Below are positions 7,752 through 26,181 of a DNA stretch of 64,000 nt, piece after piece; positions within the stretch are counted from its first letter, which is position 1; the number at the start of each line of letters is the position of its first letter. A model generated the notes under the pieces. The model did no database searches and was not told where the DNA came from. It saw nothing but the letters and a program-made list of their open reading frames with translations. This DNA is from Flaviramulus sp. (lineage in GTDB: Bacteria; Bacteroidota; Bacteroidia; Flavobacteriales; Flavobacteriaceae), in contig JANQTJ010000040.1 in the NCBI GenBank assembly GCA_030731745.1, forward strand, positions 1 through 64,000, read 5' to 3'. The translations under genes were made by a program, and so were the position numbers.

Positions 7752-8630
7752 TTAATTAATATGTTTTTGTGCATGGTAAGATGATCTTACAAGAGCGCTA
7801 CTTTCAACATGGCGAAATCCTAAACTTAACCCAATTTCTTCAAATTCTTTAAATTGATCAGGGTTGATAAATTGTTTGACAGGTAAATGTTTTTTACTTG
7901 GTTGAAGATATTGACCAATAGTTACTACATCTACATCATTAGCTTTTAAATCGTGAAGCGTTTCTATAACTTCTTCTCTTGTTTCACCTAACCCTAGCAT
8001 TATTCCAGATTTAGTTCTGCGTTGCCCTTGTTGTTTCAAATATTTTAAAACACCCATACTACGATCGTACTGTGCCTGAATTCTTACTTCACGAGTTAAA
8101 CGTCTTACTGTTTCTATGTTATGGGACACAACTTCTGGTGCTACACCAATTATTCTGTCAATATGTTGTTCGATACCTTGAAAATCAGGTATTAGAGTTT
8201 CTAAAGTAGTTTCTGGGTTCATCCTTCTAACAGCTTTTACAGTTTCAGACCACATAATACTACCCATATCTTTTAAATCATCTCTATCAACACTGGTTAA
8301 AACGGCATGTTTAATTTTCATAATTTTTATAGAACGAGCAACTTTTTCTGGTTCATCCCAATCTACTGTTTCTGGGCGTCCTGTTTTTACACCACAAAAA
8401 CCACAAGAGCGAGTACAAACATTTCCTAAAATCATAAAAGTAGCTGTGCCTTCTCCCCAACATTCACCCATATTAGGACAGCTACCTGAAGTACATATGG
8501 TATTCAACTTATATTTATCAACCAACCCTCTTAATTCGGTATATTTTTTTCCAGTTGGAAGTTTAACGCGAAGCCATTTTGGTTTAGTTTGGCGTTCTGG
8601 TAATATGTTTGAGGTTATTTCTGTATTCAT
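7752..8630 (-). CDS. lipA: Lipoyl synthase LipA
   Basis: Radical SAM enzyme that inserts two sulfurs into octanoyl groups on lipoyl-dependent proteins. Both iron-sulfur sites are visible: the auxiliary cluster [12 protein letters not shown] (Cys46, Cys51, Cys57) and the radical SAM motif CTRSCGFC (Cys72, Cys76, Cys79). The C-terminal RSSY motif that ligates the auxiliary cluster is also present. Length is 292 aa. The ATG at 8630 was chosen because an upstream TTG at 8651 lies inside the apparent -7 box (8649-8656) and could not be in the message. It leads into gap, 2 bases downstream. Confidence 0.96.
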
Positions 8631-8648
8631 ATTAATCAAATAAGATAG

Positions 8649-8656
8649 CAAAGATA
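8649..8656 (-). promoter_or_regulatory. lipA: -7 promoter box for lipA
   Basis: Minus strand TATCTTTG, a perfect TAnnTTTG match, about 19 bases before the lipA ATG. It fixes the start at 8630 rather than the in-frame TTG at 8651. Confidence 0.55.
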
Positions 8657-8678: not shown

Positions 8679-9893
8679 TTATAATGTGGTAAGATACCAG
8701 ATGCTAAATCCTATTAAAAAAGTAATACCAAACCAACTTAAAAAATGCATTTTTTTAGAAGGTCGCCACTCTTTTGGGGTATGAACACTAGATATGAGTT
8801 TATAATTTATTATTGCATAAAATGGAGCAGTTATAAACGATAATATGGTGGCTATTTTAATTAATAATCCCATTTCAGAATCTAAAAAGAAAAAGATACC
8901 AATAGTACCTATAGTGAGTATAAGAATCCATATTAAATAACCATATTTTGAAGATTTATTAAATAATAGATCAGTTGTTCTATTCATAACTCTAGGAGAA
9001 GCATCTAAAGTGGTTATAGTAGTACTAAACATCGTGGTAAAAGCTGCAATGGCTATAATATAATGTGCCCAATTACCTAGGCTTTTGGTGTATAAATCTA
9101 TTAACTGACCAGAAAACACACCTGCTGAATTACTAAATGTTTCTCCACTATTAAACATTATTAAAGCTCCTAACATAAGAAAGCCAATGCCTATTAAAAT
9201 CGCACTTAAATAACCTATATTAAAATCAAACAATGCTGATTTTGTATTGTATTTTTTAGTGTCCTTATTCTTTTCTATAGCCCATAAAGATTGCCACACA
9301 GAAACATCTAATGGAGCAGGCATCCAACCCATAAAAGCAATTAAAAAAGTAATTTCTAAAGCACCACTTGGAAGTATTTGTTTCAATGAAATTGGACTTG
9401 ATTTATATGAAAGTGCCATAAAAACAGCTAAAATTGTACTAATTGTTAGAGTAACAACAATAACTTTCATAAGATTATCTAATAATTTGTATTTGCCAAA
9501 AACCAATAATGAAAAACAAACAAAAAGTATTATTACTGTCCAAATTTCTATGCTAATAAAATCACCAAATAAAGTTGAAGCTAAACCCGCAGTTACAATG
9601 GTTACTGCAGTTTGAATGGTAAACATAGTAGCTATATTTAGAGTATAATAAGTCATTAAAACACCTTTGCCTAATTTTTTATAACCGTCAAGTAAACTTT
9701 CGCCTGTAGCAGTAGCATATCTTGGTCCAAATTGAAAAAAGGGATATTTGAATAAATTAACTAATAATAGAGCCCAAAGTAAGCCTAATCCAAAATCAGC
9801 TCCAGCTCTGGTAGATTGAACCAAATGCGATACACCTATCGCTGCACCAGCAAACAATAAACCTGGACCTAAGTTTTTAATTTTTTTTATCAT
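8679..9893 (-). CDS. Nramp-family metal transporter with altered metal site
   Basis: 404-aa multi-pass inner-membrane protein with the Nramp fold. It opens with GPG in TM1 and has the AGADFG...LLW continuation typical of the family. The metal-binding motifs differ from canonical MntH. The TM1 DPGN motif aligns with GVSH (residues 20-23), losing the metal-ligand Asp and Asn. The TM6 motif MPH aligns with MPAP (191-194), keeping the methionine but losing the histidine. Canonical Mn/Fe import is therefore not assured; Nramp-related clades with altered motifs carry other ions. The ATG follows directly on the stop of the ECF sigma gene (TAAATG), indicating tight coupling. Confidence 0.85.
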   Translation of the reverse strand: MIKKIKNLGPGLLFAGAAIGVSHLVQSTRAGADFGLGLLWALLLVNLFKYPFFQFGPRYATATGESLLDGYKKLGKGVLMTYYTLNIATMFTIQTAVTIVTAGLASTLFGDFISIEIWTVIILFVCFSLLVFGKYKLLDNLMKVIVVTLTISTILAVFMALSYKSSPISLKQILPSGALEITFLIAFMGWMPAPLDVSVWQSLWAIEKNKDTKKYNTKSALFDFNIGYLSAILIGIGFLMLGALIMFNSGETFSNSAGVFSGQLIDLYTKSLGNWAHYIIAIAAFTTMFSTTITTLDASPRVMNRTTDLLFNKSSKYGYLIWILILTIGTIGIFFFLDSEMGLLIKIATILSFITAPFYAIINYKLISSVHTPKEWRPSKKMHFLSWFGITFLIGFSIWYLTTL

Positions 9894-10439
9894 TTATTCC
9901 TCTCTTATGATTTCTGCAAGTAGTTTTTTTGCACGAAGTAATTTTACCTTAACATTATTAATGGGCTCTTTAAGCTCTTTTGAAATTTCTTTATAACTTA
10001 ATTCTTGAAAATAGCGTAAATTTATAACTTCTTGATAATGAGGCTTTAATTTTTTTATATCGCGTAGTAGTTTTGCTAGATTTTGTTCAGTTATTAGTTC
10101 ATCTTCAGGTGAAGGTGATTCATCTAAAATTTGAAAAATCTCACGTTCATCTTTGGAAATTATTTGAGTTATAGAGTTTTTTTCTTTCCTCAATAAATCT
10201 ATATGTATGTTTTTCGAAATAGTAATTAACCAAGTTTTAAACTTGTAGTTATCATCAAAAGTTTCGATTTTATCAAAAGCTTTTGAGAATGTTTGAATAC
10301 TAATATCTTCAGCATCATTTTCATTTTGAGTGCGTTTTAATTGATAACCATAAATATCCTCCCAAAAAGTATCTAATAAATAGTTAAATGCTTTTTGGTC
10401 ATTTGCTTTGGCACGTTTAATAGCTTCCTCTATTTCCAA
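9894..10439 (-). CDS. ECF-type RNA polymerase sigma-70 factor
   Basis: 181-aa alternative sigma factor. Region 2 (AEDISIQTFSKAFD...FKTWLITISKN) recognises the -10 element and melts DNA. Region 4 (LRYFQELSYKEISKEL...VKVKLLRAKKLL) is the helix-turn-helix for the -35 element. The start is TTG at 10439, since no ATG is available and an in-frame stop lies two codons upstream. It overlaps the end of the glycosyltransferase gene by 10 bases and abuts the Nramp gene with no spacing. No anti-sigma gene is adjacent, unlike the other ECF factor at 13456. Regulon unknown. Confidence 0.92.
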   Translation of the reverse strand: MEIEEAIKRAKANDQKAFNYLLDTFWEDIYGYQLKRTQNENDAEDISIQTFSKAFDKIETFDDNYKFKTWLITISKNIHIDLLRKEKNSITQIISKDEREIFQILDESPSPEDELITEQNLAKLLRDIKKLKPHYQEVINLRYFQELSYKEISKELKEPINNVKVKLLRAKKLLAEIIREE

Positions 10440-11542
10440 TAGTTAGGTTTTGAAACAAGATTATTTATAAAGATAGTTAATTGTGTAAAAAGTAAAAATA
10501 TTTCTAGAAAAGGAAGCAAAATCAATAAATCTATTTCACCCAATTTTTTTGAAGAGTTGCCAAATATGACATATTGTAAAATAATTCTAAATAAAATTAA
10601 ACTAGCAACTATTTGCAATTTAAAAGTGGCCATAATTAGAATTATTGATAAAATCCAAAATAAAAATTGTAAACTGTAAATATGAGCTAAAAGGATTTTG
10701 TGCTTGAGTTTATAATGATTAGCAGTTGAAACATGTCGTCTTTTTTGTCTAAACCAGTCTTTAAAGGCTGGTTTAGGGTTTGATTCTGTAAAACTTTCTT
10801 TTGAAAAACAAATCGCGGTATTTGTTTTATTTGCTATCTGGTTAATAAATAAATCATCATCACCAGACCTAACTTTTATGTGTTTAATAAAACCATTAGC
10901 ATTAAAAAACTCTTTTTTTGTATAAGCTAAATTTCTACCAACACCCATGTATGGCGTGCCTAATTTGGCAAGTGAAAAATAATTTATTGCTGTTACTAAA
11001 GTTTCAAAACGGATGAGTTTATTTAAAAATGATTTTTTAATTTTTGAATATGAGCCATAACCTAAAATAATAGTTTTTTCGTTGTTAAAATGAGAACTCA
11101 TTTCTTTAATCCATTGATTTGATATAGGTTTACAATCAGCATCTGTAAATAAAAGATATTCATTTTTTGAAGCTTTGATACCTAAGGTTAAGGCATATTT
11201 TTTATTTCCCCAAAAAGCCTCAATACTTTTTACATCAACAATTTTTATGTTTTCATGTAGTTTTTCAAAACTTTGCATCACTTTTAAAGTTTTGTCATGA
11301 GAAGCATCATTAATTAAAACAATTTCAAAATCTGGATAATCCTGATTAATGATATAGGGTAAAAAAGTTTTTAAATTATCGGCCTCATTTTTTGCGCAAA
11401 TAATAACTGAAATTGGGATTTTTTTGGAAGGCTCTTTTAGCTGTTTTAAAAAAGCGAACTTTCCGTATAAAAAAATATAAACTACAACTTGAATAAAAAC
11501 TACAACAATAAATGTGTAGAAAATAACGTCAAGCAACACCAT
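10430..11542 (-). CDS. Glycosyltransferase family 2, membrane-bound
   Basis: 370-aa inner-membrane glycosyltransferase. It has an N-terminal transmembrane helix (about 8-28), then a GT-A domain with SVIICAKNEA, LINDASHD, the DxD-type TDAD, GDDDLF and a QKRRH motif comparable to the QxxRW signature of processive family 2 enzymes. The C-terminal third holds two or three membrane helices. Donor and acceptor sugars cannot be read from sequence. The ATG at 11542 was preferred to the preceding TTG. It is coupled to the sigma-factor gene by a 10-base overlap, and the small membrane-protein gene ends or starts only 6 bases away upstream. Confidence 0.88.
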   Translation of the reverse strand: MVLLDVIFYTFIVVVFIQVVVYIFLYGKFAFLKQLKEPSKKIPISVIICAKNEADNLKTFLPYIINQDYPDFEIVLINDASHDKTLKVMQSFEKLHENIKIVDVKSIEAFWGNKKYALTLGIKASKNEYLLFTDADCKPISNQWIKEMSSHFNNEKTIILGYGSYSKIKKSFLNKLIRFETLVTAINYFSLAKLGTPYMGVGRNLAYTKKEFFNANGFIKHIKVRSGDDDLFINQIANKTNTAICFSKESFTESNPKPAFKDWFRQKRRHVSTANHYKLKHKILLAHIYSLQFLFWILSIILIMATFKLQIVASLILFRIILQYVIFGNSSKKLGEIDLLILLPFLEIFLLFTQLTIFINNLVSKPNYWK

Positions 11543-11548
11543 CAAATG

Positions 11549-11894: not shown

Positions 11895-12581
11895 ATGAAA
11901 AAATTATTTGCAGAGTTTTTTGGAACTTTTTGGCTTGTTTTTGGGGGTTGTGGTAGTGCTGTGTTTGCTGCTGGTTATCCTGATTTAGGAATTGGATTTG
12001 CTGGAGTAGCTCTCGCATTCGGTTTAACTGTATTAACCATGGCTTATACTGTTGGACATATTTCTGGAGGCCATTTTAATCCTGCAGTATCATTAGGCCT
12101 TTGGGCAGGTGGCAAGTTTGAAGCTAAAAATTTACTAGGTTATGTCTTAGCCCAATTAGTTGGAGCTATTGCTGCTGCTGGAGCTTTATACTTAATATTA
12201 TCAAACCAAGCTGAGTTTTCTACTATTGGTGGTTTTGCATCCAATGGATATGGTGATTTGTCACCTGATGGTTATTCAATGACAGCCGCTTTAATTGCTG
12301 AGTTTTTATTGACGATGTTTTTCCTTTTAATCATTTTAGGAAGCACTAATGAAAGAGCTCCCAAAGGATTTGCTCCTATTGCTATTGGTTTAGGTTTAAC
12401 CTTGATACATTTAATAAGTATCCCAATTACAAACACCTCGGTTAATCCTGCACGTTCTACAAGTCAAGCTTTATTTGCTGGTGCTGACTATACGAATCAG
12501 CTTTGGTTGTTTTGGGTTGCTCCAATAGCCGGAGCTATAGTGGCAGGTTTTATTCATAAAGCATTATTTGATAAAGAATAA
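11895..12581 (+). CDS. aqpZ: Aquaporin Z
   Basis: Inner-membrane water channel of 228 aa with six membrane helices. Both NPA boxes are present: HFNPAVS in the first half and VNPARST in the second. The conserved start motif [17 protein letters not shown] and the selectivity-filter Arg after the second NPA support the water-selective AqpZ class rather than a glycerol facilitator. It is monocistronic, with its own promoter upstream and a strong hairpin terminator 20 bases downstream. Confidence 0.95.
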
Positions 12582-12654: not shown

Positions 12655-13443
12655 TTATTGTAAGCTAATTTGTGCCACTGAATTTCTTGTAGATGCTACG
12701 CTATTTCCACCTTTAGGTTCTATAGTTATGCTTAACGCCAAAGCGTCTTCCATGTATGGGATGTTTTGCAACTTTCTGTCAGCTTCATTTAAAATACCTA
12801 GGCTTACCATTTTACCCTGCAATTCTGCCCATATTTGGTAACATTGTTCTTCAGGTAATTTTGGTAAAGAAACAACATCAATCATAGATGTTTTTTCTTT
12901 TGGGTTGATGTAAGCAACAGTTCTAAGATCTTTAGCTCTTTCATTTCCAGTTATAATATACTTTTCAGTATCAGGATTATTTAGCTTTAAAAGTTGACGC
13001 ATTACATTATCAAGCATTCTATTATTTTTCTCTATATCACCTCTTAAGTCAAAAATTTCGTCAACAACCACCTGGTTTTCTTCAGAGAGTTTCTGATTCT
13101 GATTGTAAAATATATAAGAAGTTCCTGCAAAAATTAGTGCAGCAATACTAGCAGCGACACTAAACTTATACCATTTGCTATAATTTATCTGAGGTTTTAA
13201 TTTAACAACAGGTTTTTCATCTAGTTCTTGTAAAATAGAATCTAAGATGCTTTTTGGCGCTTCAATAGCGTTACTTTTTGCAACCACTTCTAAATTAAAT
13301 TGCAATGTGTTATATGTATTCTGTACTTCTGGGTATTTTGAAATGTAAGATTCCACCATTTCTGTTTCTTCAGAATTAGTTTCACCTAATAGATATTTTT
13401 CTAATAGGCCAGAATTTAAAAAAGTATTTATTTTCTCATTCAT
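12655..13443 (-). CDS. RskA-family anti-sigma factor
   Basis: 262-aa membrane regulator that would hold the neighbouring ECF sigma factor inactive. The N-terminal cytoplasmic part (YLLGETNSEE...) resembles the anti-sigma domain, without a clear zinc-binding HxxxCxxC. One transmembrane helix follows (about 93-114, SVAASIAALIFAGTSYIFY), then a short coiled coil. The extracytoplasmic RskA C-terminal domain carries the recognisable YQIWAELQGKMVSLG and ITIEPKGG. The gene lies 12 bases downstream of the sigma gene in one operon. The release signal is unknown. Confidence 0.9.
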   Translation of the reverse strand: MNEKINTFLNSGLLEKYLLGETNSEETEMVESYISKYPEVQNTYNTLQFNLEVVAKSNAIEAPKSILDSILQELDEKPVVKLKPQINYSKWYKFSVAASIAALIFAGTSYIFYNQNQKLSEENQVVVDEIFDLRGDIEKNNRMLDNVMRQLLKLNNPDTEKYIITGNERAKDLRTVAYINPKEKTSMIDVVSLPKLPEEQCYQIWAELQGKMVSLGILNEADRKLQNIPYMEDALALSITIEPKGGNSVASTRNSVAQISLQ

Positions 13444-13455
13444 GACTTTGTTATA

Positions 13456-13986
13456 TTAAGGATTATAGATTTTTTTTAATTCTCTCAATCCAATTTTTAA
13501 TCTCGATTTTATTGTTCCAAGTGGAATATCAAGTTCTTCACTAGCTTCTTGTTGTGTCATACCTTCAAAAAAAAGTGCATTTAAAACAATTTGATACTTC
13601 TCATCTAAGCTTTTAAGATGTTTTTGTATATCTAGCACATCTTCATTTAATGCGTTTGATGTTATTTTATATACGGAAGAAGTTTCAATTTGGATTTCGT
13701 TACTGTTTTTGTTTTTTAAAGATCTTATTTTATCAATAGCCGTATTATATGAAATTCGATATAGCCAAGTAAATAATTTAGCTTTACTCGCATCGTATTT
13801 TTTTGAGTAACGCCATATTTTTACAAAACTTTCTTGAAGGACATCTTGAGCAGTATCATCATCAGTGATTATTTTTTTAATAACACCATATAGCGTGTCT
13901 GCATAGTTTTCATATAATAAACTAATGGCTTTCTTATCGCCTTTTTGCAACAATGAAACTATTTCTTTTTCTATGGATGAAATCAA
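13456..13986 (-). CDS. ECF sigma factor (SigK/RpoE-like) paired with anti-sigma
   Basis: 176-aa sigma-70 family factor. Region 2 is visible in YADTLYGVIKKI...AQDVLQESFVKIWRYSKKYD and FTWLYRISYNTAIDKIR. Region 4 is in ALFFEGMTQQEASEELDIPLGTIKSRLKIGLRELK. It starts at TTG (13986): in-frame sequence upstream reaches a stop with no ATG. With the RskA-type membrane anti-sigma gene directly downstream it forms a standard trans-envelope signalling pair. Many such pairs regulate their own operon; no matching operator could be identified by eye. Confidence 0.92.
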   Translation of the reverse strand: MISSIEKEIVSLLQKGDKKAISLLYENYADTLYGVIKKIITDDDTAQDVLQESFVKIWRYSKKYDASKAKLFTWLYRISYNTAIDKIRSLKNKNSNEIQIETSSVYKITSNALNEDVLDIQKHLKSLDEKYQIVLNALFFEGMTQQEASEELDIPLGTIKSRLKIGLRELKKIYNP

Positions 13987-22633: not shown

Positions 22634-23028
22634 TTGTGGAGTCGGAGAGAATCGAACTCTCGTCCAAACAAGTAACAAAAAGGCTTTCTACACGTTTATT
22701 CTTTTCTTGGGTTTTCGATTAAAAGCTGGTTAAAGACAACCTACTTTTAACTTAGCTTCTTTAGTTTCAAAAGTAAATCAAAGCATTCTACTCTCTATGT
22801 TAACATTTACGATGCCTCAAAAAGGAACGCCGTTAACCAAGGCTTTCCGGAGACATAAAGCTTGTACACCTTGTGTACCTAGGCTAATCTTACTAAAATT
22901 CAGATTAAGCAGCTAAAGCGTAGTTATTCTCGCCGTTTAAAGTTCGATTTGGTCTTTTAGGTGTTTCAAAATCATTGCACCACGTGCTTACCATCCCATT
23001 AATCTCGCTGTCAAAACCAGTCGACCCC
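22634..23028 (-). ncRNA. ssrA: Transfer-messenger RNA (tmRNA)
   Basis: Rescues stalled ribosomes and tags the nascent peptide. The 5' end GGGGTCGACTGGTTTTGACA and the 3' T-arm/acceptor GGTTCGA-type segment (GAGAGTTCGATTCTCTC) followed by CGACTCCA form the tRNA-like domain. The acceptor stem GGGGTCG pairs with CGACTCC including one G-U. The tag frame at 22905-22934 reads GENNYALAA followed by TAA, the typical flavobacterial tag. The genomic bases after the discriminator A are CAA, not CCA, so the CCA end must be added enzymatically. Length is about 395 nt, one-piece tmRNA. Confidence 0.96.
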
Positions 23029-23047: not shown

Positions 23048-23121
23048 GCGTTACCCTAAAGGGTCAGGCTTTTCGCTATATCTTTTTTGCTTTTATGTCA
23101 AAAAAGGATGTTGCTACAATC
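23048..23121 (-). repeat. Intergenic hairpin repeat, copy 1 (upstream of ssrA)
   Basis: On the minus strand: GATTGTAGCAACATCC (23106-23121), a T-rich spacer, then AAAAAGATATAGCGAAAAGC and a small hairpin ACCCTTTAGGGT, ending AACGCC. The two blocks match copy 2 at 26040-26181 in the same order (11 of 16 and 17 of 20 positions by eye). It lies between the ssrA gene and the apparent ssrA promoter at 23136-23169, so it may be part of the pre-tmRNA leader. Confidence 0.6.
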
Positions 23122-23135
23122 CTTAACTCAGCCTG

Positions 23136-25968: not shown

Positions 25969-26039
25969 AGATTAATGATTTATAAATATATTCACTTTTT
26001 AAACGGAATATTTTAATAAGAATTGTTAGGTGCATAAGC

Positions 26040-26181
26040 GATAGAAACGGCATCCTTTTTACCTTATTGTTAAAAATATTTTTAGTTTTTAACCTATTGA
26101 TTATTAAGATTAAAGGTGTTTTAGGTAAAAAGATATAGTGGATAGCGCGCCTTTTTTTTACAACAAAAAAAAAGGGATGCC
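26040..26181 (+). repeat. Intergenic hairpin repeat, copy 2 (upstream of typA)
   Basis: Starts GATAGAAACGGCATCC (26040-26055). CTTTTTACC (26055-26063) pairs with GGTAAAAAG (26124-26132), and the outer GGCATCC (26049-26055) pairs with GGATGCC (26175-26181). A 14-base perfect palindrome TAAAAATATTTTTA sits in the middle (26071-26084). AAAAAGATATAGTGGATAGC (26127-26146) matches copy 1 at 23048-23121. The element fills most of the gap between divergent kdsA and typA. Confidence 0.6.

Follow-up and report, generated by a model that had tools for sequence, protein, structure and literature searches.

The question raised by this locus is whether a protein that general profiles place among the Nramp metal transporters, and that lacks most of the residues with which Nramps bind metal, should be called a manganese importer at all, and what it might carry otherwise. 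The gene lies within the window, i.e. the whole stretch of 64,000 nucleotides that was analysed (Flaviramulus sp., contig JANQTJ010000040.1), and the coordinates of the features are given in Table 1. In the span 8679-9893, forward frame 1 is full of stops and the intact reading frame is that of the minus strand; an ORF of 122 aa in another frame (plus strand, 9247-9615) overlaps the transporter gene. The encoded protein scores 68.4 bits with the Nramp profile PF01566 (gathering cut-off 29.8) and 65 bits with NF037982 (cut-off 50), a generic model which labels such proteins 'Nramp family divalent metal transporter' and whose best stretch here covers residues 9-165 only, whereas it stays below the cut-off of the MntH model PRK00701 (25.3 bits vs 430).

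Table 1. Location of the transporter gene, its motifs and its neighbours in the window, and of the gonococcal relative (last line).
Feature	Position	Strand	Remarks
GxSH-clade Nramp-related transporter gene	8679..9893	-	one intact ORF, 404 aa, stop codon within coordinates
GVSH of TM1, codons 20-23	9825..9836	-	at the place of DPGN; G20, S22 and H23 invariant (69/69)
Lys49 in TM2, codon 49	9747..9749	-	invariant (69/69)
GWMPAPLD at the TM6 break, codons 189-196	9306..9329	-	G189, W190, M191 and P192 invariant (69/69); position 196 is Asp in 66 and Glu in 3
Asp297 and Arg301 in TM8, codons 297-301	8991..9005	-	both invariant (69/69)
lipA (lipoyl synthase)	7752..8651	-	TIGR00510, 353.6 bits (cut-off 310); listed start TTG; 27 bp downstream by that start
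ECF-type sigma factor	9894..10439	-	stop codon abuts the transporter ATG
Family 2 glycosyltransferase	10430..11545	-	upstream; overlaps the sigma gene
Neisseria gonorrhoeae GGSH gene	L287:7980-9190		417 aa from first Met

An earlier note, made from the sequence, had proposed an Nramp-fold transporter at this place and suggested a structure prediction; the PF01566 score and the predicted structure both agree with it. Indeed, the AlphaFold2 model obtained from a 69-sequence alignment (pLDDT 91.5, pTM 0.90; 81.6 and 0.81 for an earlier model from 24 sequences) is predicted to have an Nramp/LeuT-like fold. When structure lists were compared, the closest solved structure was the outward-open DraNramp 6d91 (Z 41.2, rmsd 3.0, 381 residues), which was likewise ranked first with the 24-sequence model (Foldseek; Z 41.1). 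Other solved Nramps follow at Z 36.1 and lower, and further fold matches include EleNRMT (Z 34.1), the arginine carrier AdiC (33.5), BfraNramp (32.3) and ScaDMT (32.0). Another match of the fold search, PDB 9a52, is a deposited cross-linking model pairing YcsG with FabL, an enoyl-ACP reductase. TM6 is interrupted at residues 191-196 in the 69-sequence model, and TM1 is assigned by DSSP as a single unbroken helix (residues 10-34) in both models. In canonical Nramps TM1 is unwound at DPGN; as TM1 is drawn unbroken here, unlike in these proteins, the TM1 site may be quite different.

The motifs named in the earlier note, namely GVSH (residues 20-23), MPAP (191-194) and GPG (9-11), read as stated; the note gave no strand for the gene. 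The MAFFT alignment with Escherichia coli MntH places GVSH on DPGN without gaps, Asp being replaced by Gly and Asn by His, and a mixed PF01566 profile runs ungapped here too, so that the ungapped replacement read by eye was confirmed; hhalign against canonical sequences alone opened local gaps and still paired H23 with the canonical Asn. Since G20, S22 and H23 are identical in all 69 aligned clade sequences, the GVSH pattern is not a matter of chance. The TM6 His is lost in either possible register (column 193 is A/T/I/S/G and column 195 is L/I/V/M/F in 69/69), and alignment and clade columns together bear out the claimed loss of the coordinating Asp, Asn and His. Two features had gone unmentioned: the TM3 Glu is also replaced (its column, T98 in the window protein, holds Thr in 55 of the 69 sequences and Glu or Asp in none), and H23 is an invariant polar residue at the Asn position.

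The register of TM6 is less simple. MAFFT leaves this segment ungapped, the canonical M-P-H-N falling on A193-P194-L195-D196 with Met replaced by Ala193, whereas hhalign and hmmsearch pair the canonical MP with M191-P192, which requires indels; scored directly against the profile, the ungapped register gives 5.4 and the gapped one 16.2 before and -7.8 after two gap costs, so that the former wins only once gap costs are charged. The invariance of M191 and P192 (69/69), P194 not being invariant, favours the register that keeps Met; a distant Azospirillum member has Phe at the M191 position. Retention of the TM6 Met thus depends on the alignment register. The statement that Met and the GPG start remain therefore holds for GPG, while its Met part varies with the method (MAFFT vs hhalign and hmmsearch); that MPAP stands for MPHN is right as regards the lost His, the pairing of MP needing indels and differing in MAFFT. 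As to the description of the protein as being without the metal site, the canonical ligands are indeed gone, but in their stead the clade keeps an invariant His, an acidic residue (Asp or Glu) and further charged positions. The window protein can accordingly be described, from its residues, as an Nramp-like membrane transporter without most Nramp metal-binding residues.

These residues recur in a family. Positions invariant in the 69 aligned sequences include G20, S22, H23, K49, W190, M191, P192, S202, W204, T291, D297 and R301. By its sequence, the window protein is the flavobacterial representative of a conserved clade, designated GxSH, of LeuT-fold transporters that are related to Nramps and so far uncharacterised. 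A profile search detected the clade in 51 of the 296 Bacteroidota genomes sampled, the own genome included, and each of the 30 loci obtained has G[VT]SH in TM1; the 18 listed same-family genomes without a match belong, all but one, to genus g57. The best 80 of the 524 confirmed stretches of a contig scan are all close relatives, among them that of the marine flavobacterium Yeosuana aromativorans at 85% identity. Of 72,556 plasmid records searched by tblastn, 8 contain relatives, and in 6 of these at least 80% of the query is covered. Members from Pseudomonadota were reached through this plasmid collection only, and 4 of the 8 matches were read: the Photobacterium, Pseudoalteromonas and Neisseria proteins have GGSH in TM1 and GWMPAPIE in TM6, and the distant Azospirillum protein has GASH and GYFPTTLE, all four keeping H23, K49, D/E196, D297 and R301.

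A phylogeny with MntH and NRMT sequences, as suggested in the earlier note, places the protein outside canonical MntH at 100/100 and EleNRMT elsewhere. In the 73-row tree, a branch with 100/100 support splits the 48 GxSH rows from all others, and the 13 canonical rows are set apart likewise; in the 43-row tree, to which Pseudomonadota were added, 25 GxSH rows are separated, again at 100/100. EleNRMT joins rows of the L223-L226 type and not GxSH in both trees (on a long branch in the 73-row tree). The sequences L001, L227 and L231 group apart from GxSH (99/93 and 99/97), their likeness to YcsG consisting of the pxpA neighbour and the motif only. In both trees L233 (GASD, with the same Lys), a long branch, is inserted between the GxSH rows and all others; it may be the nearest kin of the clade.

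A decaying or single odd gene was set aside as an explanation, since 144 of the 146 clade loci scanned carry the two motifs within one reading frame of over 380 residues. The two loci failing this filter are L025, the split copy, and L054; a single TGA interrupts the matched stretch in genome G199. At L133 (G030, contig C4, 78627-88509) the GxSH gene is split into parts encoding residues 5-246 and 239-404, about 8.7 kb apart with ORFs between them. Two contigs titled Chlorobiota and Rhodobacteraceae (L061 and L073) carry the flavobacterial sigma-transporter-lipA order at 77% and 69% identity, for which reason these MAG labels are probably wrong.

The own genome encodes one further PF01566 protein (L001:1405-2637, contig C15), with GPGS in TM1 and directly beside pxpA, a 5-oxoprolinase subunit gene named by NF003814 (243.7 bits vs 226). 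Because of this motif and this neighbour, it is a candidate PxpT/YcsG rather than an MntH. Canonical MntH was not found in the own assembly (75% complete, 46 contigs). Among 60 relatives a canonical-scoring PF01566 gene occurs in only 3 (G040, G045, G053), none of which has a GxSH gene, and many have neither; the GxSH gene thus does not mirror MntH loss among these relatives, and the counts do not establish it as a stand-in for canonical MntH. In a 60-genome sample of the class, a canonical-scoring gene is present in 2 of the 9 genomes with GxSH (own included) and in 26 of the 51 others, counts that ignore kinship. PF01566 misses some GxSH genes, e.g. in G050, G052 and G055.

Gene order around the transporter was compared in 112 loci (80 plus 32 further ones from relatives). 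In 90 of them the transporter directly follows an ECF sigma gene, and in 89 it is directly followed by lipA; 82 loci have both, and 68 of these 82 show abutting or overlapping frames of sigma factor and transporter. A DUF218 gene neighbours the transporter in some same-family loci. The order sigma, transporter, lipA is conserved in Flavobacteriaceae; members from other families have different neighbours (nitronate monooxygenase among others), and four distant GxSH genes (L132, L135, L136 and L140) adjoin one gene cluster, the L140 member of which is a nitronate-monooxygenase-family protein. Among 16 genomes lacking the transporter, a close sigma orthologue (>120 bits) is found in 14 and lipA in all 16, and the sigma gene adjoins lipA, with no ORF of at least 60 aa between them, in 4 (G014, G253, G027 and G003). 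In genome G142 a 414-aa MFS transporter (L277:711-1955) fills the slot between sigma and lipA; it is closest to organic-acid/H+ symporter families, far below their cut-offs, and this is 1 of 9 regions read. Since sigma-lipA pairs exist without the transporter and other families have other neighbours, the gene order does not reveal the substrate; it looks ancestral rather than like a functional pair that would identify the substrate, and deduction of the substrate from gene neighbours was set aside. The neighbours read include no recognisable metal gene, and comparison of the neighbourhoods showed no catabolic gene that is kept beside the transporter from family to family.

Control by a riboswitch was likewise dropped: an Rfam search at gathering score gave no match in 20 clade loci, nor near the gene in the window. 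The M-box riboswitch is not present on all NRMT genes. A link to magnesium transporters specifically, one of the options of the earlier note, was not borne out, as EleNRMT groups elsewhere and no Rfam match was obtained in the 20 loci. Elsewhere in the window, a second ECF sigma gene is followed by a putative anti-sigma gene (67.9 bits, short of its cut-off of 100) at 12655-13986 (minus strand), near aquaporin Z (11895-12581). Flavo-1 RNAs occur twice, once adjoining a tmRNA gene; the three features lie at 22634-23028 (minus), 23058-23132 (minus) and 26030-26156 (plus).

Nramp-related proteins lacking DPGN and MPH are described in passages of several papers as paraphyletic and mostly uncharacterised (PMC12873925, PMC9606685, PMC10606218, PMC4072509). 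One of them, EleNRMT, carries Mg2+ (PMC12873925, text passages), in line with the view of the earlier note that such loss changes ion choice in Nramp-related clades. The window protein resembles canonical Nramp/MntH (SLC11) in overall fold (Z 41), in the GPG start and in the AGA motif after TM1, and differs in that Asp, Asn, His and TM3 Glu are all replaced and in belonging to a separate clade. With EleNRMT (NRMT, Mg2+/Mn2+) it shares the fold (Z 34) and the lack of DPGN and MPH, whereas EleNRMT has DAGG in TM1, keeps the TM3 Glu and groups with other sequences. The YcsG/MntG/PxpT group, represented by L001 only, is also Nramp-related with Gly for Asp in TM1, but L001 has GPGS in TM1 and GTTVVPYN in TM6, forms part of a separate clade and lies beside a 5-oxoprolinase gene; the window transporter is not beside pxpABC, its neighbours being the ECF sigma gene and lipA. 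The PF01566 outgroups called 'G-motif' groups in passages of PMC12873925 have the fold, no DPGN/MPH and Gly at the first TM1 ligand position, to which, at a guess, the name 'G-motif' refers. They may well include the GxSH clade, which is distinguished by His at the Asn position, by TM6 GWMPxx[LIVM][DE] and by invariant K49, D297 and R301. Titles and abstracts of the literature searched contain no description of a GxSH group, PMC12873925 being known by text passages, and the word GVSH occurs in none of the 20 papers searched for it.

One member of the clade appears to have a name already. A 417-aa protein of Neisseria gonorrhoeae was named MntH and called the first mntH orthologue of this species, and 12 mntH SNPs were tied to the Gonococcal Genetic Island through manganese (PMC10272882, in the passages available); passages of PMC9280163 give the function of the neisserial MntH homologue as untested. 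In the one chromosome-sized gonococcal record searched (NZ_CP119142.1; 2.17 Mb, yet filed as a plasmid), the sole PF01566 match is the GGSH gene, at 29.2 bits and thus under the cut-off of 29.8, its protein narrowly passing NF037982 (51.3 vs 50). As the length of 417 aa and this uniqueness match, the published mntH would be the GGSH gene of Table 1, and so appears to belong to the GxSH clade. Both proteins have GxSH in TM1 and the Asp and Arg of TM8, the gonococcal GWMPAPIE corresponds to the TM6 motif of the window protein, and they fall in one clade (100/100); the gonococcal protein differs in its Pseudomonadota branch, in being about 35% identical and in adjoining lysS, not lipA. By its residues, this neisserial member is probably misnamed as mntH.

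As regards function, the explanation that we prefer, tentatively and at slightly under an even chance, is that the protein is an alternating-access carrier of LeuT fold whose central site has been rebuilt and whose substrate is probably a cation. Transport would proceed by alternating access, as in other LeuT-fold carriers, with the substrate held between TM1 and the TM6 break; the candidate site would be made of His23 (at the Nramp Asn position), Asp/Glu196 (end of the TM6 break) and a TM8 Ser/Thr, and H23 and D196 would face one cavity. An imidazole and a carboxylate at the centre suggest a cation, which would most likely be divalent and bound by a non-canonical ligand set; this different set, without the canonical TM3 Glu, makes the protein probably not a canonical H+-coupled Mn2+/Fe2+ importer. 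A plain importer of this kind (MntH), with a site built from other residues, is what the annotation and the gonococcal name imply, and the PF01566 and NF037982 scores, the narrow pass of the gonococcal relative, its published name (PMC10272882, in part) and the invariant M191-P192 speak for it. It is nevertheless unlikely, given the PRK00701 score far under the cut-off, the loss of Asp, Asn, His and TM3 Glu, the split from canonical sequences at 100/100, and the canonical gene being found in only 3 of 60 relatives, none of them with GxSH and many relatives having neither.

Against a metal stand the lack of a recognised metal gene nearby, the lack of a riboswitch match, and the invariant Lys and Arg, which fit an anionic or zwitterionic solute too. 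Proteins of PF01566 with a reported substrate are mostly metal-ion carriers (PMC12873925, PMC4072509, PMC10448178, in the passages available), which speaks for a cation. The rival reading is transport of a small solute other than a metal (amino-acid-like or otherwise polar and organic, or a monovalent ion), in the way suggested for PxpT with 5-oxoproline; it is possible without being the expected outcome, and in that case H23 and D196 would serve to hold a polar group or to relay protons. Indeed, Corynebacterium glutamicum needs pxpT to grow on 5-oxoproline, and the nearest TCDB relatives of pxpT are of the NRAMP family (PMC13274462, in part), the model matches AdiC about as well as EleNRMT and better than BfraNramp and ScaDMT, Met191 is not kept in Azospirillum, no riboswitch was matched in the 20 clade loci, and the sigma-lipA slot of G142 holds an MFS gene near organic-acid/H+ symporter families, below their cut-offs. 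However, that slot is a single anecdote (1 of 9 regions read), the GxSH clade is separate from the group holding the paralogue beside pxpA, YcsG, a PxpT homologue, is also reported as a Mn2+ importer (PMC10448178, in part), and no catabolic neighbour is conserved across families in the neighbourhoods compared. That the protein mainly serves the ECF sigma factor encoded next to it, sensing for it or acting as its partner (e.g. as membrane anti-sigma or transceptor), more than as bulk transporter, would suit the sigma gene immediately preceding the transporter in 90 of 112 loci, with frames abutting or overlapping in 68 of 82; it is very unlikely, as the sigma orthologue adjoins lipA without the transporter in 4 of 16 genomes, no sigma gene is beside the transporter in the neighbourhoods read from other families, nor could one be made out by eye in three Pseudomonadota loci.

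In summary, that Nramp-related proteins without DPGN and MPH exist is already known (PMC12873925, text passages), and the present analysis adds the signature GxSH, the finding that it extends over two phyla, the invariant charges and a probably misnamed neisserial member. As most metal-binding residues are missing, the sequence in the window does not support the name of manganese importer, a name on which the published manganese hypothesis for N. gonorrhoeae rests (PMC10272882, in the passages available). With some reserve, it may be that the GxSH clade carries, in Bacteroidota and Pseudomonadota, something that no studied Nramp carries, by means of a site made of the TM1 His and the TM6 Asp/Glu; if so, manganese import would not be the function of the gonococcal mntH, variants of which go with the Gonococcal Genetic Island. 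With a clade that has no canonical ligands but an invariant set of its own, substrate change within the Nramp fold becomes a question that can be tested on a gene which is probably mislabelled; once identified, the substrate would help to tell whether metals or organic solutes were transported by the early relatives of Nramp.
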